Part shown: positions 3,001-27,477 of the stretch, in pieces
How the letters are laid out: each line of letters starts with the position of its first letter
Position numbering within the stretch: position 1 is the first letter of the stretch
NCBI RefSeq assembly: GCF_000306945.1
Contig: NC_018518.1
Coordinates: 2,046,001-2,110,000, forward strand
From: Bordetella pertussis 18323
Lineage (GTDB): Bacteria > Pseudomonadota > Gammaproteobacteria > Burkholderiales > Burkholderiaceae_B
Direction of reading: 5' to 3'
DNA: 64,000 nt
Translations under genes and position numbers: made by a program
Notes under the pieces: model-generated
Told to the model about the DNA's origin: nothing
Database searches by the model: none
The model's input: only the letters and a program-made list of their open reading frames with translations

Positions 3001-6000
3001 TGAAGGCCGCCATCGCTCTTAACCGACCCGAGCTCCAGCTTCTGCTGCGCGCGCGCCTGCAGATCGCCGGTCGTGTCGACGATACCCAGCGTCATGGAGC
3101 GCCCCGCTTGCAGATCGGCGCCTGCATCGCTCACCAGCTTCGCAACGCGCACGTCTCCCGTGCCATTGACGTCCACCGCCCCTACGGCGGCCAACGTGCC
3201 CAGGTCCAGGTGCTCGCCGCCCTGCACATGCAGCGTGCCGCTAGCCTTGGCCGATTGCAGCGCCACGCCGGCGCCTCCGTCCAGGGCCAGCGCGCCGCGC
3301 GCCTGCACGGCGCCCAGATCGAGCTGGCGGCCGCTCGACACATGCAGACCGCCCCCGCTGGTGGCGGCCGTTACGCGCACCGCATCCTTGCCGCTGACCC
3401 GAACGTCGCGATTGGCGTGCAGCGAGTTCGCCGCCACCGTGGATCCGCCGCGCACGTCGATCGAACCGGCGGCCTCCACCGCGCCCAGCGTGGCGCCGCC
3501 TTCCGCCCCCAGCGAAATGTCGGCAAGACTGCGGGCGTGATCGACCCTGACCGCATCGCGCCCGGACACGCTGATCGCGCCGTCGGAACCGAGGGAGTCC
3601 GCTCCGACCGCGCCCCAGCCTTCGAGCCCGATACCGCTCTTGGCGGAAACCTTGCCTACATCCAGCGCGCCGTGCGCCGAAATGGCGACCCTGGACGCGC
3701 TGTTGACGCTCTGAACCGACACGCGTTCGCCGCCCGTCACGGAGATGTTGTCCAGCGACTTCAACTCGGCCACGGTCGCCGCGCGCGCGGCCGATACCGT
3801 CAGCTCGCCCTTGGCCGCGAGACTGCCCAACGCAGCCTGCCCGTCGCTGGAAACCCGCAATTGCCCGCCCGCGTGCGCGCCATCCAGTCGCACGGCATCG
3901 CGGCCGTTCACGGTCATGGCACCGGCCGATTTCAGGAACCCGGCCTGCAACGCGTCGCCCGCCTGCAGCGCAAGGTCGGCGGCAGCCGCGACGTCTCGCA
4001 CCGTCATGGCGCCCGCGCTGGTGGCGCGGACCTGCCCATCCGACTGGACATCGCCCAGGTTGACGGCGCCGCCGCCGCTGACGGTGACGGCGCCACGGCT
4101 GCGCATATCCTTGGCCGACACGCTGCCGCCTGCCTGGACGCCGATCGCACCGAGGGCCGTCATGCTATCGATCGACAAGGCGCCGTGCGCGGAGACCTTC
4201 ACATCGCTATCGCTGCGCGCACGGCCGATATTGACGCGCCCCTCGCCGGAGATATCCGCGCCGCGCGCTGCGCTCAGGTCGTGCAGATCCACCTGGCCGC
4301 GCCCGCGCACGCGCAATTCCGCGTCGCTGTTCGCGTTGGCCACGCTGACCGCCTCTCCACCCTGTACGCCGATGGCGCCCTTGGACTGCAGGTTGCGGGC
4401 CGCCAGCGCTCCTGCGGCAACCACGGTCATGCCGCGTGCGCTCGAAGCGTCATCCAGCGCGACCTCCCGCTGCCCACGCACCTCAAGTTGGGCACTGGAG
4501 ACCAATTGCTTCGCCCGCAGGTTTCCGCCAGCGCTTACCGACAGCGCACCGTCGCTCGCAACCGAACCCAGCGTGACGGCCTGCTTGCCGTCCACGTCCA
4601 GTCGCCCCGTCGCCGACAGCTTGCCCGCCTTGAGGGCGCCGCCGGCACGCACCGACAGCGCATTGCTGCTGGCCGACCCCAGCGCGACGGCCTGCTTGCC
4701 ATCCACGTCGACCCGTCGCGTCGCCGACAGCTTGTCCGCCTTGAGGGCGCCGCCCGCGTTCACGGACAGCGCCTGACGGCTGCTCGCCGCGCCAAGCTGG
4801 ACGGCCTGGCGGCCCGACACCAGCAACGTCCCCCCGGCATTCAACAGCGTGGCCTGTACCTTGCCGCCGCCTTGCACCGCGAGGTTTCCAACGCTGCTGG
4901 CCGACGCGATCTTCACCGCCCCGCCGCCCGCGACGTTCACCGCCCCCCCCCCGGAGGCCAGTTTGCCGGCCGACACGACCCCCGCGCCCTTGAGGCTGAG
5001 CGGGCCGCGCTGGACCGTGGCGTCGCCCAGCGCGATTTCGCCCTGCGACGACACGGTGATGGCCGATGGCGAGGACAGGCTGCCGAGCTGGCGCACGCCC
5101 AGGCCTGAATCGCTGGACACCAGCGTGATGTGCTTGCCGTACATGGCGCCCGCCGCCGTGCCGTCAATCGCGTAGGCGCCCGCGGCGGCGCCGCGCGCGC
5201 CTGCGGCGATCGGCGTGGCGCGGCGGGTTGCGTGGTCGTACCGGTTGGCGCCGGCGATCACCGCGATGTCGGCCAGGGGCTTGCCCTGCTTGCTCGACAC
5301 GGCACCCTGCAGCTTGACCAGGCGCGCCACCACGTCGAAATAGCCCAGGCCGGTGGCATTGACGCCGCCTCGTTCGATCGTGACGGTGCCCTGTTGGACA
5401 TCAAGGCCGATGCGGCCGCCGTTGACGCTGGGACGCCCCGTCGTGAGCGTCAGGTTGCTGGCGTTGAGCGTGCTCAGGCCGTTGACGCTGATGCCGTTGG
5501 GGTTGGCGATGATGAGGTCGGCGCCCTTGCCATAGACTTCGAGCGTACCGGCCAGGCGGCTGGGCGAAGTGTCCGTGACTTCGGCAAGAATGGCCGAGGC
5601 CTGGCGAGTCAGGTTGGGGTTCTTGGTCAGCGCCCCGCCGATCCTGGACACGCCGTCGGTCAGGCCGTTGTTGAAGACCACGCCAGGGTTGGCGACGTTG
5701 AACTGCTGGAACTTGTTGTGCGAGACGCCGCCGGAATTTGGGTCGGCGATATTGACAACGGGAACCTTGTTCCCGCCCTGCAGCACCTGTGTCTGCCCCT
5801 GAGGAACCAAGCCCTGGGCGTGCGTTACTAACGGAAGACCCGTACACGCCAACATCAGGGCCCAGGCCAGCGCATTGGGCGCTACGGACAGGCTCGTGGC
5901 GCGGGCCCCACTTCGCGCTTGACCACGCGTGCGCCCACAGAAGGTGTTTCCGACGGTGCAATGCTCGCTCACGGGAACAAGCATGCCGCGAACATGGCTG

Positions 6001-7093: not shown

Positions 7094-10000
7094 ATGCCCG
7101 CCCCGCACCGCCTGTACCCCCGCAGTCTGATCTGCCTGGCTCAGGCGCTATTGGCATGGGCTTTGCTGGCATGGGCGCCCGCGCAGGCAAGCCAGGAGCT
7201 GACCCTGGTCGGCAAGGCTGCCGTTCCCGACGTCGAGGTCGCGCTCGACGGCGACGACTGGCGTTGGCTGGCCCGCAAGCGGGTACTGACGCTGGGTGTG
7301 TACGCACCGGACATTCCTCCGTTCGACGTCACCTATGGCGAACGCTACGAAGGCCTGACGGCCGACTACATGGCGATCATCGCGCACAACCTGGGGATGC
7401 AGGCGAAAGTGCTGCGATACCCCACGCGCGAACAAGCCCTCAGCGCGCTGGAAAGCGGGCAGACCGACCTCATCGGCACCGTCAATGGCACGGACGGCCG
7501 GCAACAGAGCCTGCGTCTGAGCGTTCCCTACGCCGCCGACCACCCGGTGATCGTCATGCCCATCGGCGCACGCCACGTTCCAGCCTCGAACCTGGCCGGC
7601 CAGCGGCTGGCGGTCGACATCAACTACCTGCCCAAGGAAACGCTCGCACGGGCCTACCCGCAGGCTACGCTGCATTACTTCCCCTCATCCGAGCAGGCGC
7701 TGGCCGCGGTGGCCTATGGGCAGGCCGACGTATTCATCGGCGATGCCCTGACCACCTCGCACCTCGTATCGCAAAGCTATTTCAATGACGTTCGCGTAGT
7801 CGCCCCGGCCCATATCGCGACGGGCGGAGAATCCTTCGGCGTGCGCGCCGACAACACCCGCCTGCTGCGGGTGGTCAACGCCGTACTCGAAGCCATTCCG
7901 CCTTCCGAACACCGCAGCCTGATCTACCGCTGGGGACTGGGCAGCAGCATTTCGCTCGATTTCGCGCACCCCGCGTATTCCGCGCGCGAGCAGCAATGGA
8001 TGGCAGACCACCCCGTCGTCAAGGTGGCGGTCCTGAATCTGTTCGCGCCCTTCACCCTGTTCCGCACCGACGAACAGTTCGGCGGGATCAGCGCCGCCGT
8101 GCTGCAGCTGCTGCAATTGCGCACCGGCCTGGACTTCGAGATCATCGGCGTCGACACGGTCGAGGAACTGATAGCCAAGCTGCGTTCGGGCGAAGCCGAC
8201 ATGGCCGGCGCCCTGTTCGTCAACAGCGCGCGGGAGTCCTTCCTCAGTTTCAGCCGGCCGTATGTGCGCAATGGCATGGTGATCGTCACGCGCCAGGACC
8301 CCGACGCGCCCGTCGACGCCGATCATCTGGACGGCCGCACGGTCGCGTTGGTGCGCAACAGCGCCGCCATTCCCCTGCTGCAGCGGCGCTATCCCCAGGC
8401 GAAGGTGGTGACCGCCGACAACCCGAGCGAGGCGATGCTGATGGTGGCCAATGGACAGGCCGACGCCGTCGTGCAGACGCAGATCAGCGCCAGCTATTAC
8501 GTCAACCGCTACTTCGCCGGCAAGCTGCGCATCGCCTCGGCGCTGGACCTGCCCCCGGCCGAGATCGCGCTGGCGACGACGCGCGGCCAGACCGAACTGA
8601 TGTCCATCCTGAACAAGGCGCTCTACAGCATTTCGAACGACGAGCTCGCCTCCATCATCAGCCGCTGGCGCGGCAGCGACGGCGATCCGCGCACCTGGTA
8701 CGCCTACCGCAACGAGATCTACCTGCTGATCGGGCTGGGCCTGTTGTCGGCCCTGCTGTTCCTGAGCTGGATCGTCTACCTGCGGCGCCAGATCCGCCAG
8801 CGCAAGCGGGCCGAGCGGGCGCTGAACGACCAGCTGGAATTCATGCGCGTGCTCATCGACGGCACGCCTAACCCCATCTATGTGCGCGATAAGGAAGGCC
8901 GCATGCTGTTGTGCAATGACGCCTACCTCGACACCTTTGGCGTGACTGCCGATGCGGTACTGGGCAAGACCATTCCGGAAGCCAACGTGGTGGGCGACCC
9001 GGCGCTGGCCCGCGAAATGCACGAGTTCCTGCTCACGCGCGTGGCCGCCGAGCGCGAGCCGCGCTTCGAGGACCGCGATGTCACGCTGCACGGCCGCACC
9101 CGCCATGTCTACCAGTGGACGATTCCGTACGGCGACTCGCTGGGCGAACTCAAGGGCATCATCGGCGGCTGGATCGACATCACCGAACGCGCCGAGCTGC
9201 TGCGCGAGCTGCACGACGCCAAGGAAAGCGCCGACGCCGCCAACCGGGCCAAGACCACGTTCCTGGCAACGATGAGCCACGAGATCCGCACGCCGATGAA
9301 CGCGATCATCGGCATGCTGGAGCTGGCGCTGCTCCGTCCGACCGACCAGGAGCCGGATCGCCAGTCCATCCAGGTCGCGTACGACTCGGCCCGCAGCCTG
9401 CTGGAGCTGATAGGCGACATCCTGGACATTGCGAAGATCGAGGCGGGAAAATTCGACCTGGCGCCGGTGCGCACGGCGCTGCGCGTCCTGCCCGAAGGGG
9501 CGATCCGCGTCTTCGACGGATTGGCGCGCCAAAAAGGCATAGAGCTGGTATTGAAGACCGACATCGTGGGCGTCGACGATGTATTGATAGACCCCTTGCG
9601 CATGAAGCAAGTGCTCTCGAACCTGGTGGGCAACGCCATCAAGTTCACCACCGAAGGCCAGGTTGTCCTTGCCGTGACCGCACGCCCCGACGGCGACGCC
9701 GCGCACGTGCAGTTCAGCGTGAGCGACACCGGCTGCGGCATCAGCGAGGCCGACCAACGGCAGCTGTTCAAACCGTTCTCGCAAGTGGGTGGCAGCGCCG
9801 AGGCCGGGCCGGCGCCGGGCACCGGCCTGGGCCTGTCCATCAGCCGGCGCCTCGTCGAATTGATGGGGGGAACGCTGGTCATGCGCAGCGCGCCAGGGGT
9901 GGGCACAACGGTTTCGGTGGACCTGAGGCTGACCATGGTCGAAAAATCCGTGCAGGCCGCGCCGCCCGCTGCGGCCACTGCGGCCACGCCGTCCAAGCCG

Positions 10001-23883: not shown

Positions 23884-24210
23884 TCAGCCCGCCTGCCGGC
23901 GCGCCTCCAGCTCTTTCAGGCATTGCGCCACGCCGGCACGCATTTGCTCGTTGGACACGGCGGCGCGGTCCGAGACGTCGCGGCAACGCTGGTACTCGCG
24001 CACGCTCTCGGGGGTGTCGCGAATGGGAACGGCCGCGGCGCCCGGCGTCTCGGTGATGCGCAACGTCGAGGGCGGGGACTGGCTGCCATCCTTGGACGGC
24101 GCGCTGGGATACTGGTATTGCTGCTGCACGGCCTGCGCCTGGGCCGCCGAGGCGGCGGCGCACAAGGCCGCCAGCAGGCCGGCGGCAAGAATGCGGTGGG
24201 TGGTCTTCAT
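23884..24210 (-). CDS. small exported hypothetical protein
   Basis: A 108-aa product with a good signal peptide (MKTTHRILAAGLLAALCAAASAAQAQA) and a short Gln/Pro/Ser-rich mature chain. Its C-terminal half, YQRCRDVSDRAAVS...VAQCLKELEARRQ, has two cysteines that may form a disulfide in a helical pair. I do not recognise the family. It stands 24 bp upstream of the DUF3820 gene on the same strand, so the two may be one transcript. Confidence 0.7.
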   Translation of the reverse strand: MKTTHRILAAGLLAALCAAASAAQAQAVQQQYQYPSAPSKDGSQSPPSTLRITETPGAAAVPIRDTPESVREYQRCRDVSDRAAVSNEQMRAGVAQCLKELEARRQAG

Positions 24211-24354: not shown

Positions 24355-25260
24355 TCAGCCGGTGAATCGGGCCAGGTGCGCCAGCTTGTCGGGGTTGCGC
24401 ATGATGTAGACGCGGACGATGCGCCCGCCGCACACGCCCAGCGAAATCGTGCGCGGCAGCCCGTCGCGCTCGATGCCGTAGATGGCCGGCATGCCGTTGA
24501 GCTGCACGATGCGCACCGACGACAGGTCGCTCTGGCCCTTGCGTGCCAGGCCGGCGAAGGCGCGCACGATATTGGCGCGGCCCTGTATGGGGCGCATGAA
24601 CGCCAGTTTCTTGCCGCCGCCGTCGCTGTGCAGCACCGCGTCATCGGCCAGCAATTGGCGCAGGATGTCCACGTCGCCATGCTGCGCGGCGTCGATGAAG
24701 GCGCGCGCCAGCCGGATGCCCTCGCTTTCTTCCACGGCAAAGCGCGGCCGCGACTCGCGCACGCGGTTGCGGGCGCGCGCGGCCAACTGGCGGCAGCCTG
24801 CCTCGGTGCGGCCCAGCGTGCCGGCGATCTCGGCGAACGGCACATCGAACACATCGTGCAGCAGGAAGGCGGCGCGCTCGGATGCGGACAGCCGTTCCAG
24901 CGCCAGCATCAGCGCCACCGATACGTCATGCGCGATCTCGCCCGGGGCCGCACCGGCATAGGCCTGCGCGTCCGGCAGGGGCTCGGGCAGCCAGGGGCCG
25001 ACATAGACCTGGCGGCGAACGCGCGCCGATTTGAGCACATCCAGGCACAGGCGGGTCGCGATGCGCGAGAGAAACGCGCGCGCATTGTCCAGCGTGGCCG
25101 GATCGATCTCGCGCCAGCGCAGCCAGGTTTCCTGCACGATGTCCTCGGCCTCGGACCAGGAGCCCAGCATCCGGTACGCCAGTCCGTACAGGTGGCGCCG
25201 GTGCGGCTCGAAATCGTCCGCGCCCGGCGTATCGATCGTAATGGCGGCGGTTTTACTCAT
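24355..25260 (-). CDS. ECF41-type extracytoplasmic-function sigma factor
   Basis: A 301-aa sigma factor with regions 2 (LAYRMLGSWSEAEDIVQETWLRW) and 4 (ERLSASERAAFLLHDVFDVPFAEIA...GRTEAGCRQL), plus an extra C-terminal SnoaL-like domain of about 110 aa that ordinary ECF factors lack. All three ECF41 landmarks are present: WLPEP in the linker (90-94), DGGGK (213-217) and NPDKL (289-293). In this group the fused C-terminal domain replaces an anti-sigma factor and modulates activity. The gene overlaps the stop of the upstream carboxymuconolactone-decarboxylase-family gene by 8 bp, the diagnostic ECF41 pairing. A matching promoter precedes that gene, predicting autoregulation. Confidence 0.93.
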   Translation of the reverse strand: MSKTAAITIDTPGADDFEPHRRHLYGLAYRMLGSWSEAEDIVQETWLRWREIDPATLDNARAFLSRIATRLCLDVLKSARVRRQVYVGPWLPEPLPDAQAYAGAAPGEIAHDVSVALMLALERLSASERAAFLLHDVFDVPFAEIAGTLGRTEAGCRQLAARARNRVRESRPRFAVEESEGIRLARAFIDAAQHGDVDILRQLLADDAVLHSDGGGKKLAFMRPIQGRANIVRAFAGLARKGQSDLSSVRIVQLNGMPAIYGIERDGLPRTISLGVCGGRIVRVYIMRNPDKLAHLARFTG

Positions 25261-25699
25261 TGACGGGATGCAGGCTGCGGAACCCCACGGCGATCCGGTT
25301 CCACGCGTTGATGGTATTGATGGCCATCGTCAGGTTAACCCGTTCCAGTTCGTCGAAGTGGGTCGCCAGCTCGGCATAGTCCGCGTCGGGCGCCCGGGTC
25401 TGCGCCAGCAGCGTGAGCGCTTCGGTCCAGGCCAGCGCGGCGCGCTCGCGCGCCGTATACAGCGGCGATTCGCGCCAGGCATTGAGCAATTGCAGGCGCA
25501 GCTCGCTCTCGCCCTGCCTGCGCGCCTCGGTATAGTGCAGGTTCAGGCAGAACGCGCAGCCGTTGATCTGCGAGGCGCGCATCTTCACCAGTTCGAGCAG
25601 GCTGTGCTCCAGGCCGCAATCGTTGACGTACGACTGCAGGGCCATCAGCGCCTGCATGGTCCGAGGGGCGACGGTGTAGGGATTCATGCGGGGCTTCAT
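25253..25699 (-). CDS. carboxymuconolactone decarboxylase / AhpD-family protein, ECF41 partner
   Basis: A 148-aa alkylhydroperoxidase-like protein. The redox motif is C48-x-x-C51-x3-H55 (GCAFCLNLH), as in AhpD; further along come YTARERAALAWTEALT and NLTMAINTINAWNR. Start at 25699 (MKPRMNPYT) because GGAG lies about 8 nt upstream; an ORF extension upstream is GC-noise. It is translationally coupled to the ECF41 sigma gene, and such genes are the usual sole target of ECF41 factors. Function is probably peroxide or related redox stress defence, but its substrate is not established. Confidence 0.9.
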   Translation of the reverse strand: MKPRMNPYTVAPRTMQALMALQSYVNDCGLEHSLLELVKMRASQINGCAFCLNLHYTEARRQGESELRLQLLNAWRESPLYTARERAALAWTEALTLLAQTRAPDADYAELATHFDELERVNLTMAINTINAWNRIAVGFRSLHPVNE

Positions 25700-25747
25700 T
25701 GCGGTTTCTCCGAGGCGGCCCCCCACCATGGCGGACCATGCAGACAA

Positions 25748-25774
25748 GACGAGGCGGCCCCGGCCCGCGTGACA
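25748..25774 (-). promoter_or_regulatory. ECF41-dependent promoter
   Basis: Minus strand: TGTCACG (25774-25768), 16-bp spacer, CGTC (25751-25748). From memory the ECF41 consensus is TGTCACA, then about 16 bp, then CGTC. The start point would fall near 25742, with a 40-nt leader to the ATG at 25699. It predicts that the downstream sigma factor drives its own two-gene operon. Confidence 0.75.
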
Positions 25775-25926
25775 GGCGGCGCCATCAAAGATGAAACAAA
25801 AAATTTCAACCTGCCGCGTGGATGCCCGCTGATTGCGCCGGCGAGGCATGGGCAGTCAATATCCGGTTACCCCGCCAACCGCAACGCCAGCTATGGTTGG
25901 CGTTGATCAGCAAAAAGGAGCGCATC

Positions 25927-26355
25927 TTGAAAACCCTGCTACCCGTATTGGCGCTTGCCGCCCTGCTGTCGGCCTGCAACGCGAACGCCCCCTCGGATAC
26001 GCCCGAGGGCGCGCCGCCGCCCGATACGCATACCTCGCGCAATTCGCTGGACTGGCAAGGCACGTACCAGGGCGTGCTGCCGTGCGCCGACTGCCCCGGC
26101 ATCCGCACGGTGCTGACCCTGCGCGCCGACAACACCTACCAGTTGCAGACCCAGTACCTGGAGCGCCAGCCCCGCCCGGACACGGTGCAAGGCAGATTCG
26201 GCTGGCTGACGGGCGACAACGCCATCGAGCTCGACAGCGCCGGCGATCACTACCGTTACCAGGTCGGCGAAAACCGGCTGACCATGATGTCGCAAGACGG
26301 CACCCTGCCCAGCGGCCCGTTGGCCGAGCACTACGTGCTCAAGCGCAGCCAGTGA
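25927..26355 (+). CDS. NlpE-like envelope-stress lipoprotein
   Basis: A 142-aa lipoprotein with the N-terminal domain of NlpE, which senses envelope and copper stress in enterobacteria. The signal sequence LKTLLPVLALAALLSACN ends in a lipobox LSAC with Cys as the lipidation site. The mature part has WQGTYQGVLPCADCPGIRT (the NlpE CxxC), TLRADNTYQL and the terminal HYVLKR. I chose the TTG at 25927 because AAGGAG stands 8 nt upstream and the lipoprotein signal begins there; an upstream ATG at 25822 would add 35 unsuitable residues. It is divergent from the ECF41 operon. Confidence 0.85.
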   Translation: MKTLLPVLALAALLSACNANAPSDTPEGAPPPDTHTSRNSLDWQGTYQGVLPCADCPGIRTVLTLRADNTYQLQTQYLERQPRPDTVQGRFGWLTGDNAIELDSAGDHYRYQVGENRLTMMSQDGTLPSGPLAEHYVLKRSQ

Positions 26356-26592: not shown

Positions 26593-27477
26593 CTATGCCT
26601 GCGCATCCAGGGCGGCCGCGCCGATCCAGTGGCCGCTGAGCAGCGGCCCGAAGCAACGCGCGGCGGCGACCCGCGCCGAATCGGGCCAGGCATCGACGCG
26701 CACCCGCAGCCCGGCGTACACGCCGTGCCCCTCGCCGGCCTCGATGCGCCCGCCCGCCTCCAGGCCTTCGCCCGAGCGGATCGCGCCGTCGGCCACGATA
26801 TCGTGGCCGGCAATCATGCCCCAGCCCGTTTCCACGTGGCCGCCGGCCAGGATGGAGCCGCCGGCCTGGATGCCGCTGACCACGTTGATGTCGTATTCGG
26901 CCTGTACGTCCTGCCCCGCGCGGATGCCTTGCTCGCATTTCAGAATGCCGCCGCTGACCACCGCGTCGCCCGCCCGGATGGGCCCGGCCACGTTCAGGTC
27001 GCCGCCGGTGCGGATGTCCCAGCCGGCGCGCAACTGTCCGCCCACCGTCAGGCGCTTGCCCACCTGGACGCCCCAGGTGGTCTGGATATCGCCGCCGGCC
27101 TGGACGTCGCCGTCGCAGACGATGCTGCCGCGCGCGTCGATGCCTTCGCCGGCCTGCACCAGCGTGCCGGCGCGAATGCCGGCGCCGCAGACGATATTGC
27201 GTCCCGCGCGCAGCACCCCGTCGACGGTGATCCCGCGCCGCACCGTCACGGTGCCGGCGAACACCAGGGCCGGCGCGTCCAGCGTATCCAGGTTCAGCAC
27301 CTGGTCGGTGGGGCCGAACTGGTCGATCAGCCACATGGCGTCGTCGATGCGGCCGGCCTCCACCAGCGCGTCGAGCACGGGCTGGTACTCGCCATGGCCG
27401 TTGTGGTCGCGCAGGAACCACCGGTATCCGGCCGTGCAGGGGTTCTTGGCTTTGACGAAATTCTTGGTAAGTTGCAT
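26593..27477 (-). CDS. beta-helix / bactofilin-like repeat protein of unknown function
   Basis: A 294-aa protein. Residues 1-60 look like an ordered N-terminal module (NPCTAGYRWFLRDHNGHGEYQ, then VLDALVEAGRIDDAMWLIDQ). From about 70 to 260 it consists of short repeats of the form GxIxAGxxVxxxGxI: GVLRAGRNIVCG, GIDARGSIVCDGDVQAGG, GIQAGGSILAGGHVETG. These should wind into a left- or right-handed beta-helix, as in polymer-forming bactofilins. No signal peptide or membrane helix. The last 35 residues (VRVDAWPDSARVAAARCFG) form a cap. The DNA starts with ATG at 27477. No neighbour suggests a job; a cytoskeletal or scaffold role is only an analogy. Confidence 0.7.
   Translation of the reverse strand: MQLTKNFVKAKNPCTAGYRWFLRDHNGHGEYQPVLDALVEAGRIDDAMWLIDQFGPTDQVLNLDTLDAPALVFAGTVTVRRGITVDGVLRAGRNIVCGAGIRAGTLVQAGEGIDARGSIVCDGDVQAGGDIQTTWGVQVGKRLTVGGQLRAGWDIRTGGDLNVAGPIRAGDAVVSGGILKCEQGIRAGQDVQAEYDINVVSGIQAGGSILAGGHVETGWGMIAGHDIVADGAIRSGEGLEAGGRIEAGEGHGVYAGLRVRVDAWPDSARVAAARCFGPLLSGHWIGAAALDAQA

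Follow-up and report, generated by a model that had tools for sequence, protein, structure and literature searches.

Here we describe a likely two-gene operon in Bordetella pertussis 18323, which lies in a 64,000-nucleotide stretch of contig NC_018518.1 (positions 2,046,001 to 2,110,000 of the forward strand) that we call the window and whose own numbering we use. The first gene codes for an AhpD-like protein of the carboxymuconolactone decarboxylase (CMD) family and the second for a sigma factor of the ECF41 type, and a predicted promoter precedes the pair. From upstream to downstream, the features are:

25748..25774, minus strand: predicted ECF41 promoter, TGTCACG-N16-CGTC, 49-75 bp upstream of 25699, with the -10 side CCGCCTCGTC
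25708..25711, minus strand: GGAG, a likely ribosome-binding site, 8 bases ahead of the ATG of the AhpD-like gene, read by eye
25253..25699, minus strand: gene for the AhpD-like protein, CMD family, 148 amino acids (aa), first gene of the likely operon
24355..25260, minus strand: gene for the ECF41 sigma factor, 301 aa, recognised from Pfam, NCBIfam, the Protein Data Bank (PDB) and a structure model

In the sigma protein, region 2 (residues 17-80) is followed by a WLPEP linker (90-94), by region 4 (115-166) and, from about residue 178, by a C-terminal SnoaL-like domain, inside which lie the motifs DGGGK (213-217) and NPDKL (289-293). A Pfam scan places PF04542, PF08281 and PF12680 all above their cut-offs, the last of these, SnoaL_2, at 28.1 bits against a cut-off of 27. 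Among the NCBIfam models the protein reaches 380.2 bits for the SigJ subfamily NF007214 (cut-off 271) and stays below the curated cut-off for SigX4, TIGR02957 (319.6 bits vs 323.25). A sequence search of the PDB retrieves SigJ (5xe7) with E 1.4e-47, and a structure model with a mean pLDDT (predicted local distance difference test) of 86.1, whose alignment holds 43 of 112 relatives, agrees with 5xe7 across nearly the whole length; besides SigJ, the model also matches chains of the ketosteroid-isomerase fold. The model puts the end of the last sigma-4 helix at residue 170 and the start of the SnoaL domain at 178, with a first helix of 178-194. To judge conservation we compared 113 loci, namely the window, 32 best-scoring loci (drawn from the loci listed for 76 of the 268 matching genomes) and the 80 best among 283 named relatives. 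WLPEP is exact in 93 of the 113, DGGGK in 74 and NPDKL in 98, the window being included each time; the words DGGGK and NPDKL have no match in the text of PMC3426412, and both names are those of the original prediction for this locus, which was made from the sequence. No second ECF41 factor is seen in the genome, where just two further matches appear, with E 7.0e-5 and 2.0e-4 at 28-29% identity.

The 3' end of the AhpD-like gene overlaps the start of the sigma gene by 8 bp (25253-25260, ATGAGTAA). The open frame itself is longer (25253-25849), with the ATG at 25699 inside it, and PDB entry 2gmy aligns from residue 1 of the protein that starts at this ATG. The protein scores 69.6 bits for PF02627 (carboxymuconolactone decarboxylase) and 47.2 bits for the AhpD core TIGR00778 (cut-off 27.8), and it fails the model for AhpD proper, TIGR00777, with 19.8 bits against 191.95. 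The match to 2gmy (Atu0492) has E 3.3e-48 and runs over residues 1-147; that to 2o4d (PA0269) takes in residues 8-140 of the 148. We take E-x11-C-x2-C-x3-H to be the expected catalytic residues of AhpD-like CMD proteins, and so presumably E36, C48, C51 and H55 here, all four of which are present, the last three forming the CxxCxxxH motif. Across the 56 loci with a match, window included, C48 and C51 are each conserved in 55, H55 in 53 and E36 in 45.

The original prediction called this gene a redox partner. Its homology to AhpD stands, and a redox role is what we infer from that homology and no more, because PMC3426412 reports no significant effect of H2O2, cumene hydroperoxide, t-butyl hydroperoxide or paraquat on ECF41 strains of Rhodobacter sphaeroides and Bacillus licheniformis; a slight H2O2 sensitivity of a Mycobacterium tuberculosis sigJ mutant is cited there as well. 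Many alphaproteobacterial ECF41 loci carry, instead of the AhpD-like gene, a protein of about 181 aa (L059, 2544-3471, with CGPC in L059). At E ≤1e-20 this L059 protein finds relatives in 19 further loci, and a membrane-like protein of about 129 aa often precedes it; Pfam matches neither of the two in L059. With the AhpD-like gene of L038 the 181-aa protein shows a weak match (19%, E 8e-5), so it may be a distant relative.

The predicted promoter differs from the published ECF41 motif TGTCACA-N16-CGTC (PMC3426412) by a single base, G for A at position 7. It is the sole match to TGTCACR-N16-CGTC in the 64-kb window, for which 3 of 100 shuffles gave at least one match, and the only exact match in the 4.04-Mb genome. 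The evidence that carries our reading comes from the relatives. At 54 of the 113 loci the sigma gene closely follows an AhpD-like gene on its own strand, and at 50 of these 54, window included, TGTCAC-N16-18-CGTC occurs no more than 160 bp ahead of the AhpD-like gene, while 200 scrambled motifs gave a mean of 0.03 and a maximum of 1/54 at the same loci. Judged by these counts, the motif at this position is far beyond chance. The four loci without it are L041 and L048, where the motif lies farther up, ahead of an extra gene (in L048 one of the NmrA family, in L041 judged by eye to be another AhpD-like one), and the actinobacterial L084 and L107, whose AhpD-like matches are 31-32% identical. The motif was not a requirement at the other 59 loci; 16 of them that belong to relatives have it in the 1.5 kb ahead of the sigma gene. 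We also compared 46 promoters of 16-base spacer from relatives, base by base, in the columns not fixed by the search: the window's base is shared at column 18 (C) by 41 of the 46, at column 19 (C) by 12, at column 20 (G) by 32, at column 22 (C) by 40 and at column 23 (T) by 45. The window promoter fits the most conserved of the unfixed columns and is off the commonest base at 7, 19 and 21.

Thus the protein has the marks of ECF41 (regions 2 and 4, a SnoaL-like extension, WLPEP and the conserved extension motifs), and so has the locus (a CMD-family neighbour, no obvious anti-sigma gene and the promoter, one base off). The two genes form an ordinary ECF41 operon like those characterised by Wecke et al. 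2012; it is a further member of a known family, with nothing unusual in the module itself. Much of this had been anticipated by the original prediction: the sigma factor with its fused domain and three motifs, all read directly, the domains now confirmed by Pfam; the overlapping CxxCxxxH gene; the upstream motif, found at the distance given above; and ECF41 membership with a likely operon behind its own promoter motif, which the related loci bear out. The search it proposed for a second TGTCACR-N16-CGTC promoter led nowhere, as none stands out above a reversed control pattern genome-wide. Allowing one mismatch gives 72 sites in the whole genome, the true one included, vs 82 for the reversed pattern, and TGTCAC-N16-18-CGTC gives four sites vs four; the three extra sites of the latter were taken as chance, their count being equal to the control. 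The predicted regulon is accordingly small, the AhpD-like/sigma operon alone, and single-target regulons are likewise reported for B. licheniformis and R. sphaeroides (PMC3426412).

We propose, with a probability of roughly 0.88, that this is a self-activating operon behind a conserved ECF41-type promoter, switched on by its own sigma factor. Gene order, overlap, domains, motifs and the promoter motif with its conservation are what can be read from the sequence; the dynamics would be as follows. With no signal, the C-terminal domain would hold sigma activity low. A signal, which might be a small molecule bound in the SnoaL pocket, would shift the sigma factor to another conformation, and the holoenzyme would then transcribe the AhpD-like gene, with more sigma factor following by read-through and translational coupling. 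Since the promoter precedes both genes, their two products would increase on activation. An anti-sigma factor would not be needed, and the operon would be the sole target.

There is precedent in the family suggesting that the SnoaL-like domain restrains the sigma factor, that part of it is needed for activity and that a conformational change, which ligand binding may bring about, activates. When cut to 204 residues, Ecf41Bli was about 20-fold more active, and Ecf41Rsp cut to 206 residues about 120-fold, while ECF41 proteins cut at 167 or 169 were inactive and one cut at 192 had lost part of its activity (PMC3426412). Hyperactivity of a cut after residue 180, as originally predicted, is therefore probably wrong: because the SnoaL domain starts at 178 and the published cuts at or below 192 are dead or weakened, such a cut should be weak or dead, if the numbering corresponds.

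Two neighbours flank the operon.

25927..26355, plus strand: gene for an NlpE-like lipoprotein with a TTG start (PF04170, 97.1 bits), a divergent conserved neighbour outside the operon
23884..24210, minus strand: gene for a 108-aa protein with a signal-peptide-like start by eye, the downstream neighbour

The 108-aa protein has no Pfam or NCBIfam match. It is unlikely to be an anti-sigma factor, because its gene is found across the genus regardless of the operon (14 of 15 genomes, own included); of the four neighbours scanned besides the AhpD-like gene, none matches an anti-sigma family. Farther off, at 26593-27477 on the minus strand, lies a gene for a repetitive-looking 294-aa protein with a MinC_C score of 27.5 bits, below the cut-off of 33.2, and a 60% identical match at L140 (10593-11459).

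Six of the 15 genomes of the genus, own included, have an ECF41 factor at E ≤1e-40, and the other five factors are 42-50% identical to that of the window. The midpoint-rooted tree of all 113 sequences places the window in one group with 11 from other genera of the family (support 1.0), ten of them 65-70% identical to the window sigma factor and one 59%. Regions around six of these 11 close orthologues show, as in the window, an nlpE homologue 0.3-1.5 kb from the operon in five and the 108-aa gene in four. One of the close orthologous operons, L137 of another genus (4738-5301 and 7404-8575), is preceded by an OsmC-like gene and followed by genes for a GNAT acetyltransferase and an isochorismatase-family protein, none of which is found directly beside the window operon. 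We also inspected 12 same-genus regions, chosen for carrying the 108-aa gene: nlpE is found in 11, and neither operon gene is found in any of the 12 at the corresponding site. Five of them have there an open reading frame of 577-620 aa instead, alike by eye (L146, 3922-5655; L147, 4389-6251; L148, 4860-6629; L151, 4974-6782; L157, 4630-6438), and that of L146, the only one scanned, has no Pfam match. The site is only 0.25-0.41 kb in L152-L154 and is arranged otherwise in L149, L150, L155 and L156. The simplest reading is an old operon that this lineage has retained and that its sisters have lost, or had replaced, at the site; horizontal gain is not favoured, because nlpE and the 108-aa gene also flank orthologous operons elsewhere. 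The claim that the operon is intact here holds up, both frames being open; the companion claim that the genome has lost many such systems holds only moderately: it has 11 Sigma70_r2 matches (all sigma-70 types), the other 14 genomes have 8-43, and five of these have fewer.

How firmly can self-activation be held? Several points weigh against it. At column 7, in the -35 element, the window's G is shared by 5 of the 46 relatives, with A in 41, and its C at column 21 by 3. The reversed control pattern also has one exact match in the genome, so genome-wide uniqueness alone proves little. A literature search that included start-site maps found no expression data for the operon, and no description of it in this organism among papers of which most subscription ones lay outside the scope; the one paper naming both ECF41 and Bordetella is a Leptospira comparison. 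(Among B. bronchiseptica genes reported as raised in blood and serum, and also in a Bvg profiling table, is the CMD gene BB0458; it adjoins the enoyl-CoA hydratase gene BB0457 and is probably a different gene.) Accounts of the mode of restraint differ: according to a review the SnoaL-like domain contacts the linker and blocks binding to core polymerase, yet co-purification with polymerase was better for full-length Ecf41Bli than for its hyperactive truncation (PMC3426412). Finally, an Azospirillum ECF41 factor is reported, in a title within a reference list, to control motility, so single-target regulons may not be general.

The alternatives account for the same locus less well. An operon that is a relic, intact yet no longer used, would be compatible with the lack of expression evidence in the literature search and with a genome laden with insertion sequences, where integrase-core matches number at least 150 (150 of 249 candidates scored) and come mostly from one 332-aa frame; B. 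pertussis has many IS481 copies. But both frames are open, the promoter motif is retained, and conserved columns are kept at 31/32 and 40/41 in the two proteins, the count for the AhpD-like protein resting on the 52 of 55 relatives above 100 bits. Moreover, the window branch, 0.386 from the clade node, falls among the 0.341-0.536 of the 12 sequences of the window and other genera, and we consider a relic quite unlikely. It is a little harder still to credit that the AhpD-like protein is itself the sensor or an anti-sigma partner, with its CxxC sensing an oxidant and controlling the sigma factor. The frequent gene linkage and the conserved C48, C51 and H55 would suit such a role, but YdfG co-expressed with Ecf41Bli left promoter activity unchanged (PMC3426412), and 59 of the 113 loci have no such gene just upstream, some having one elsewhere or another partner. 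That the sigma factor belongs to another SnoaL-bearing group, for example ECF56 (SigG1), seems very improbable given that the sequence prefers SigJ (5xe7, E 1.4e-47, vs 7qh5, E 3.4e-10) and that WLPEP, the AhpD-like neighbour and the ECF41 promoter motif are all present.

Within the self-activating operon that we prefer, one might go further and suppose that an endogenous metabolite or a compound of the host binds in the SnoaL pocket and is itself removed by the AhpD-like protein, closing a feedback loop kept by a host-restricted pathogen and lost from the site in sister species; we regard this as unlikely. The activating signal of ECF41 factors was still unknown in the 2012 study (PMC3426412), and one ECF41 factor with one predicted promoter and one partner gene makes this genome a simple place to seek it.

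How does the operon compare with known systems? The AhpD-like protein aligns to Atu0492 (2gmy) and PA0269 (2o4d), hypothetical proteins without a function named in their entries. SigJ of M. tuberculosis (5xe7) has the same domain order and fold as the window sigma factor, with 36% identity in the structural alignment, and DSNGK-like letters where the window has DGGGK. ECF41 factors in general have an extension of about 100 aa and a CMD, oxidoreductase or epimerase gene as neighbour (PMC3426412). Like the window operon as predicted from its sequence, the two characterised pairs, Ecf41Rsp/RSP_0606 of R. sphaeroides and Ecf41Bli/YdfG of B. licheniformis, combine a CMD-family target next door with a fused C-terminal extension, WLPEP and no obvious anti-sigma gene (PMC3426412). 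Their promoters have TGTCACA at -35 and CGTC or TGTT at -10 (PMC3426412), whereas the -35 element here ends in G, and the 8-bp gene overlap sets the window operon apart from both.
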